Shown here: in pieces, positions 26,471 to 26,693 of the stretch
Layout of the letters: each line of letters starts with the position of its first letter
Numbering within the stretch: position 1 is the stretch's first letter
The notes under the pieces: generated by a model
The model's input: only the letters and a program-made list of their open reading frames with translations
What the model was told of the DNA's origin: nothing
Database searches by the model: none
NCBI GenBank assembly: GCA_947623555.1
Contig: CANQGW010000007.1
Coordinates: 1-50,391 of the forward strand
Source: an uncultured Clostridia bacterium
Lineage (GTDB): Bacteria; Bacillota; Clostridia; TANB77; CAG-508
Direction: 5' to 3'
DNA: 50,391 nt
Program-made: the position numbers and the translations under genes

Positions 26471-26510
26471 AAAGGATGAGAATACCTATAACGGTTTTTC
26501 CTCATCCTTT
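26471..26510 (-). terminator. Attenuator-type hairpin in the left leader
   Basis: AAAGGATGAGGA and TTCTCATCCTTT form a 12-bp stem with one G-U pair and a 16-base loop; TTTTCGTGTCTTTT follows. The short upstream ORF stops at the TAG (26486-26488) inside the loop. An outer pairing joins 26427-26450 with 26511-26535. Confidence 0.65.
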
Positions 26511-26626
26511 AAGTTAATTTTATATTTATTTTGGGCACAAGAAAAAATTCCTCTTGTTAGAAGATTAGCTCTCTCTCTCTCTCTCTCTCTCTCTCTCTCT
26601 ACGGCTGCAACGGTTTCAAGTTTCAT
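26486..26626 (-). CDS. Leader peptide with (Glu-Arg)n repeat, left copy
   Basis: 46 codons from an ATG with a strong AAAGGAGG site eight bases upstream. It begins MKLETVAAV, continues as five Glu-Arg pairs encoded by (GA)n, then ANLLTRGIFSCAQNKYKI and NLKDEEKPL. It has no homolog I recognise. The stop lies in the loop of the leader hairpin, so a translating ribosome would invade that hairpin. The right copy (33231-33365) has 44 residues, four Glu-Arg pairs and otherwise nearly the same sequence. Retention of frame, ribosome site and flanking protein sequence in both copies supports translation. The likely role is cis-acting control of the operon rather than a functional peptide. Confidence 0.65.
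   Translation of the reverse strand: MKLETVAAVERERERERERANLLTRGIFSCAQNKYKINLKDEEKPL
26569..26600. repeat. Dinucleotide tract (CT)16 / (GA)16
   Basis: An uninterrupted 32-base tract inside the leader ORF. The equivalent tract at 33314-33339 has 13 units. The difference, six bases, preserves frame. Such tracts slip during replication. Confidence 0.95.
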
Positions 26627-26663
26627 GACATAAACCTCCTTTTATTTTCTTTACCCACTGTAT

Positions 26664-26693
26664 ATTGTAACACCAAGAGTTAACAAAAGTCAA
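26664..26693 (-). promoter_or_regulatory. Promoter of the left surface operon
   Basis: TTGACT (26688-26693), 18 bases and TACAAT (26664-26669) on the minus strand. The right copy has the same arrangement. Confidence 0.8.

Follow-up and report, generated by a model that had tools for sequence, protein, structure and literature searches.

A GA-repeat leader in an uncultured Clostridia bacterium as a probable phase-variable, translation-controlled transcription attenuator, and the conserved block beside its repeat

Ahead of a surface-protein operon of an uncultured Clostridia bacterium, a short open reading frame crosses a long GA repeat and ends in the loop of a terminator-like hairpin. Does the number of repeat units, by setting the position at which ribosomes stop, decide whether the operon is transcribed? 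We addressed this question by dissecting the locus within the window, i.e., the whole stretch of 50,391 nt of DNA that was analysed, and by comparing it with related loci in other genomes.

Two leaders and their operons

The leader studied, the left one of two copies, consists of the following parts:

26664-26693, minus strand: promoter, -35 TTGACT (26688-26693), 18-nt spacer, -10 TACAAT (26664-26669)
26624-26646, minus strand: ribosome site AAAGGAGG, then ATG (26624-26626)
26486-26626, minus strand: leader ORF of 46 amino acids, MKLETVAAVERERERERERANLLTRGIFSCAQNKYKINLKDEEKPL, stop TAG (26486-26488)
26600-26616, minus strand: conserved 17-nt block AAACCGTTGCAGCCGTA, adjoining the tract on its 5' side
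26569-26599, minus strand: GA tract of 31 nt, pure (GA)15G, or (AG)16 with the preceding A counted
26565-26567 and 26557-26559, minus strand: TAA stops of the two other frames, at plus two units and plus one unit, respectively
26470-26510, minus strand: terminator-like hairpin, its loop holding the TAG of the present frame

The promoter, the ribosome site, the ATG and the passage of the ORF through the GA tract were all confirmed at the nucleotide level, as was the location of the present-frame TAG inside the hairpin loop. The tract, described in the sequence-only reading as 32 bases long, is indeed a pure repeat, and its length is 31 nt unless the preceding A is included; shuffled sequences gave an expectation of 0 matches, which places it far beyond chance. 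For n=0 mod 3 the predicted TAA directly after the tract is found 1 nt past it (plus two units), whereas for n=2 mod 3 the TAA that was thought to touch the hairpin base actually lies 9 nt past the tract, ~45 nt short of the hairpin (plus one unit). A TAA at the hairpin base does exist, and it belongs to the right copy. The left hairpin has a folding energy of -20.4 kcal/mol (z -4.9, fold of 26460-26515) and is followed by a short U-run (UUUUCGUGUCUUUU), four U and then CGUGUC; the ATG of the surface gene, at 26356, lies 113 nt from it.

The right copy and the genes served by the two leaders are:

33402-33431, minus strand: right-leader promoter, TTGACT, 18 nt, TAAAAT
33231-33365, minus strand: right leader ORF of 44 amino acids
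33339-33355 and 33314-33338, minus strand: right block and right (GA)12G tract (25 nt), respectively
33254-33256, minus strand: TAA of the right +1 frame, at the hairpin base
33215-33255, minus strand: right terminator-like hairpin
24659-26356, minus strand: left operon, gene 1, membrane-anchored surface protein of 565 amino acids with List_Bact_rpt and four Big_2 Ig-like domains
19723-24639, minus strand: left operon, gene 2, secreted-looking protein of 1638 amino acids with List_Bact_rpt domains
31791-33104, minus strand: right operon, gene 1, membrane-anchored surface protein of 437 amino acids with List_Bact_rpt and Big_2, a paralogue of the 565-aa protein
27108-31766, minus strand: right operon, gene 2, secreted-looking protein of 1552 amino acids

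The two paralogous two-gene surface operons thus lie head to tail on the minus strand, with queA upstream and tgt downstream, and both carry the same leader layout of promoter, ribosome site, ATG, block, GA tract and hairpin, the hairpin being 110-113 nt from the first operon gene. Tracts of this kind number only three in the whole genome (1.39 Mb in 62 contigs, a small-genome bacterium), the third being located on contig 4, 5' of a prepilin-like gene. The close relatives are uncultured Clostridia MAGs, many of them from samples labelled 'Lapin'. As the frame states of the left and right leaders come from a metagenome assembly, their exact tract lengths are uncertain.

Two further observations concern the surroundings. 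The queA gene (33461-34527, minus strand) is split across three frames, profile positions 1-112 and 193-322 falling in separate ORFs and the middle in a third; the two frameshifts reflect either a decayed gene or sequence errors. A T-box leader (RF00230, 98 bits) occupies 38786-39025 of the minus strand, 5' of a class I aminoacyl-tRNA synthetase gene (35957-38734).

Reading frames and hairpins in related leaders

GA tracts anchored at TA were found in 38 of 145 sampled genomes of this family of uncultured Clostridia, at 1-32 loci per genome with the maximum of 32 in genome G024; in a sample of the order, 31 of 191 genomes carried such tracts, nearly all of them within the same family. For 147 tracts drawn from 51 genomes we analysed where each of the three frames ends. 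At 45 loci in 19 genomes (class A) one frame opens into a long ORF, in most cases for a prepilin-like protein (GITLIALVVTIVVLLILAGVTI), and the remaining two end early; judged by these frames, class A is ordinary in-frame switching. A side observation concerns two prepilin-like proteins 3' of the switch (L108:2969-4693 and L094:10386-11645, both minus strand), whose end resembles FGE-sulfatase/C-type-lectin-like domains, a resemblance based on a weak Pfam match (E=0.0019) in L108 only.

Class B comprises GA leaders that are followed by a terminator, 69 of them in 23 genomes, and in each a single short open frame reaches or passes the hairpin, as in the left leader. The first hairpin was reached by the open frame in 35/35 sequence clusters, where dinucleotide shuffling of the interval that separates tract and hairpin predicted 7.0 (nominal P ~1e-36), and in 34/35 clusters both other frames stopped at least 12 nt earlier (5.4 expected). 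Four entries initially scored as ending before the hairpin reflected the choice of a stronger downstream hairpin and were resolved by using the first one. As clusters share ancestry and are not fully independent, these P values are nominal only, and the hairpins are predictions of a finder that, like the clustering, was home-made. The shuffles rule out a chance origin of the frame pattern. The gene 3' of the leader is co-directional in nearly all cases and mostly encodes a prepilin-like or membrane-anchored surface protein.

The design extends to other repeats. At other loci of the same family the block stands before (TA)n, (CA)n, (AG)n or (AC)n repeats, searched with a pattern that covered the CCGTTG form of the block, and 37 such leaders with a terminator were collected from 12 genomes. 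Their open frame ends within or past the hairpin in 34/37 and abuts it in 2/37, the second frame stops earlier in 36/37, and 23 of 25 clusters fit the frame pattern as compared to 11.0 expected (nominal P 1e-9). The attenuator design is therefore independent of the repeat unit, and the proposal of a frame running into a terminator with a surface operon 3' of it gains support from this recurrence at 69 GA loci and 37 loci with other units.

All genomes examined are assemblies, mostly metagenomic, in which tract lengths may be wrong. Of the 24 loci of G024, 18 have a tract of 21 nt, and in G111 most TA loci measure 19 nt; the GA tracts of G014 are likewise dominated by a single length, 21 nt. 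One dominant length per assembly is probably an effect of the assembler, and hence the frame states from these three assemblies are not to be trusted. Because of this suspected effect, the proportions of assembled states (12 ON and 55 OFF in class B, 8 ON and 35 OFF in class A) were not used as evidence. Several tracts sit at contig ends, in G014 6/19 within 100 nt of one, as expected of repeats that are hard to assemble or of mixed length. In paralogue pairs with at least 90% identical flanks the tract length differs in 15/21, the window copies (31 and 25 nt) included.

Based on these data we propose that the left leader is a phase-variable, translation-controlled transcription attenuator, an interpretation that we hold with considerable confidence. 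The promoter would yield a leader RNA on which ribosomes, initiating at the ATG, would translate across the GA tract. At the present count modulo 3 the ribosome would reach its stop codon within the terminator loop and, by occupying the 5' arm, keep the hairpin from forming, so that the polymerase continues into the surface operon (ON), whereas with one or two GA units added or lost the ribosome would stop 1-9 nt past the tract, allowing the hairpin to form and transcription to end early (OFF). Slippage at the left tract, masking of the hairpin by the ribosome and the two states of the operon are what we infer; the anatomy, the conserved frame logic, the position of the promoter and the length differences between paralogues are established by the comparison of sequences. 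In the right copy, the frame that ends at the hairpin base is probably ON as well, giving two ON frames of three, because high-expressing cells formed a large fraction of a Streptococcus gallolyticus strain with a leader stopping right in front of the terminator (PMC3894217).

Could the leader instead be an ordinary small gene that is closed by its own terminator, with the repeat switching only the peptide product and the surface operon having a promoter of its own? A complete ribosome site, an ORF and a terminator are all present, as this explanation requires. Yet at nearly all loci the open frame enters or traverses its own terminator, unlike ordinary genes: in a control of long genes with a terminator the stop preceded the hairpin in 21/25 and was never (0) in the loop, in the 3' arm or beyond. 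Nor is there an excess of promoter-like sites after the hairpin; at p<=0.05, based on the consensus, such sites were detected before the leader in 20/33 representative loci and after the hairpin in 2/33. In addition, the peptide is not conserved from locus to locus, and two frames make use of the same nucleotides, so we regard the small-gene explanation as unlikely. We assign an equally low probability to a hairpin acting at the RNA level, on translation or decay and not as a transcription terminator, where the ribosome would open it and thereby expose the following ribosome site or shield the mRNA. The short U-run at the window hairpin would suit such an element, and so would the Gastranaerophilales and some phages, in which the end of one frame is adjacent to the following start codon, an arrangement like that of translational coupling; however, the ribosome site of the surface gene is ~100 nt beyond the hairpin and outside it, and the hairpins of most relatives are followed by T runs. 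That the tract is an ordinary or assembly-made microsatellite with no role in switching seems highly improbable to us: the lengths that pile up at 21 or 19 nt in some assemblies would be in keeping with it, but dozens of genomes, stemming from several projects, have the tract at one fixed spot of a conserved module, the frame design is kept across repeat units, and the module is also present in phages. The attenuator thus remains our preferred reading of the left leader.

The conserved block adjoining the repeat

Directly 5' of the tract lies a 17-nt block (AAACSSTTGNNGYYSTA) with the consensus [GA]AAAC[CG][CG]TTGNNG[CT][CT][CG]TA; the sequence-only reading had missed this larger unit of block and tract. 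In eight genomes it is almost confined to tracts (~50 places, as compared to 2 for a reversed control), and all 24 of 24 long GA or CA runs that were sampled blind to the block carry it, in 18 genomes chosen as tract holders. No copy was found in ~280 genomes sampled from the rest of the class, and our literature search found no report of the block or of such a regulon.

Conservation of a leader peptide was considered and dismissed, as the synonymous sites are frozen and a second frame is in use. At frame-0 loci the amino acids of the block vary and its codons are frozen against codon usage, with Thr encoded by ACC in 68/74 cases (background 4%), Val by GTT in 52/52, Leu by CTT in 44/45 and Ala by GCT in 57/58, and at about a quarter of the distinct GA loci the block is read in another frame. 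A full-length antisense RNA encoded elsewhere was likewise rejected, the degenerate block having no other exact match on either strand of the window genome. In four genomes a block-like sequence without a tract is antisense to a short conserved ORF starting with MSGHSK (L284, L288, L289, L303), which is probably a coincidence.

Outside the class, Gastranaerophilales (L196, L202, L216, L244-L252) carry the block together with a GA tract at gene 3' ends, in loci that look like surface-polysaccharide loci. At some of these loci only 2 nt separate the end of one frame from the following ATG; given the 3' position of the tract, the repeat count there alters the C-terminal tail and the spacing to the next start codon. 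Three Bacteroidota genomes have block and GA leaders (L211/L281:6331, L198:1505, L226, L185:472), at least one of which combines leader, tract, a two-frame stop and a terminator with a downstream gene, and in L281 the terminator-like hairpin is traversed by one frame.

The block precedes CA tracts on six AT-rich IMG/VR contigs (L312, L315, L316, L318, L320, L322), where the (CA)n leaders sit among tail and lysis genes. Phage L318 has it downstream of Dit and tail genes and upstream of a gene for 335 amino acids, and the leader there includes a terminator-like hairpin; in L312 it precedes a 643-aa gene upstream of the endolysin. A phase-variable tail gene is possible in these phages. L312 and L322 are identical over flanks of 1517 and 1500 nt and have 16 and 15 CA units, respectively, a difference that amounts to variable length of the module, provided that neither count stems from faulty assembly. 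L234, an IMG/VR hit, and the five other viral hits had no real tracts and were judged to be chance matches. A search of the phage database for the phage host gave no match.

What, then, does the block do? It may be a dedicated cis element acting on the adjacent tract, making, maintaining or destabilising the repeat, probably via a trans-acting enzyme, a sequence-directed microsatellite mutator common to bacteria from three phyla and to their phages. We put this forward tentatively, as a conjecture that may well prove wrong. If true, it would explain the freezing of synonymous sites, the use of two frames, the placement at leaders, gene starts and gene ends, and why GA, CA, TA, AG and AC repeats are served alike and the block was present at every blind-sampled run. 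An RNA or translation element and an inherited cassette are the rival explanations of the block.

Relation to known switches and attenuators

In contingency loci of Neisseria, Haemophilus and Helicobacter, slippage-prone repeats near the starts of surface genes shift the reading frame, and the flanks of different genes are, to our knowledge, unrelated. The loci of class A, 45 in number, belong to this type: there the repeat, part of the same block-tract module as in the window, lies inside the structural gene, whereas the window leaders end before the surface gene. Unlike contingency loci, in which the repeat disrupts a structural gene, the loci described here share an upstream block, and those of class B have a terminator in addition. 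In ribosome-mediated attenuators of the trp type, translation of a leader peptide decides whether a terminator hairpin forms; there the cue is codon-specific stalling, whereas here it would be the position of the ribosome stop as set by the repeat count. T-box leaders are likewise transcription attenuators; the leaders studied here matched no family among 4227 Rfam covariance models at the gathering score, the sole match in the window being the T-box described above.

The closest parallel is pil1/pil3 of S. gallolyticus, where GCAGA repeats lie in a leader ORF with a ribosome site, 5' of a pilus operon (Danne et al. 2014, PMC3894217). A stop codon lying well ahead of the terminator is shifted by out-of-frame changes in the repeat to a position right in front of the terminator, inside it or beyond it, and for pil1 translation-mediated antitermination was demonstrated by experiment in that study, which also discusses ribosome-mediated attenuators such as trp (PMC3894217). 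The window leader shares this organization: the tract is in a leader ORF, a predicted terminator hairpin precedes the operon, the count modulo 3 moves the stop relative to it, and a surface operon follows with no intervening promoter by consensus. The experimental demonstration in pil1 indicates that the idea is sound, yet not new.

If our interpretation is right, a mechanism described for two loci in one species would be the standard switch of the large surface-protein repertoires of a whole family, at as many as 32 GA-tract loci in a genome, and one common to phages, where it is placed before tail genes. Cell-to-cell variation would then be readable from sequence, tract length modulo 3 predicting ON or OFF, and the association of one block with differing repeat units raises the question of a cis element that directs microsatellite mutation. 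The switching mechanism is already known, and what is new is its scale, the dinucleotide units, the host group, the block, and the coexistence of fused (class A) and attenuated (class B) forms. Unlike S. gallolyticus with its GCAGA pentamers at two loci of one species, the uncultured Clostridia employ GA, CA, TA, AG and AC dinucleotides at 1-32 loci per genome across the family, accompanied by a conserved 17-nt block, and the same module is also fused in frame to surface genes.
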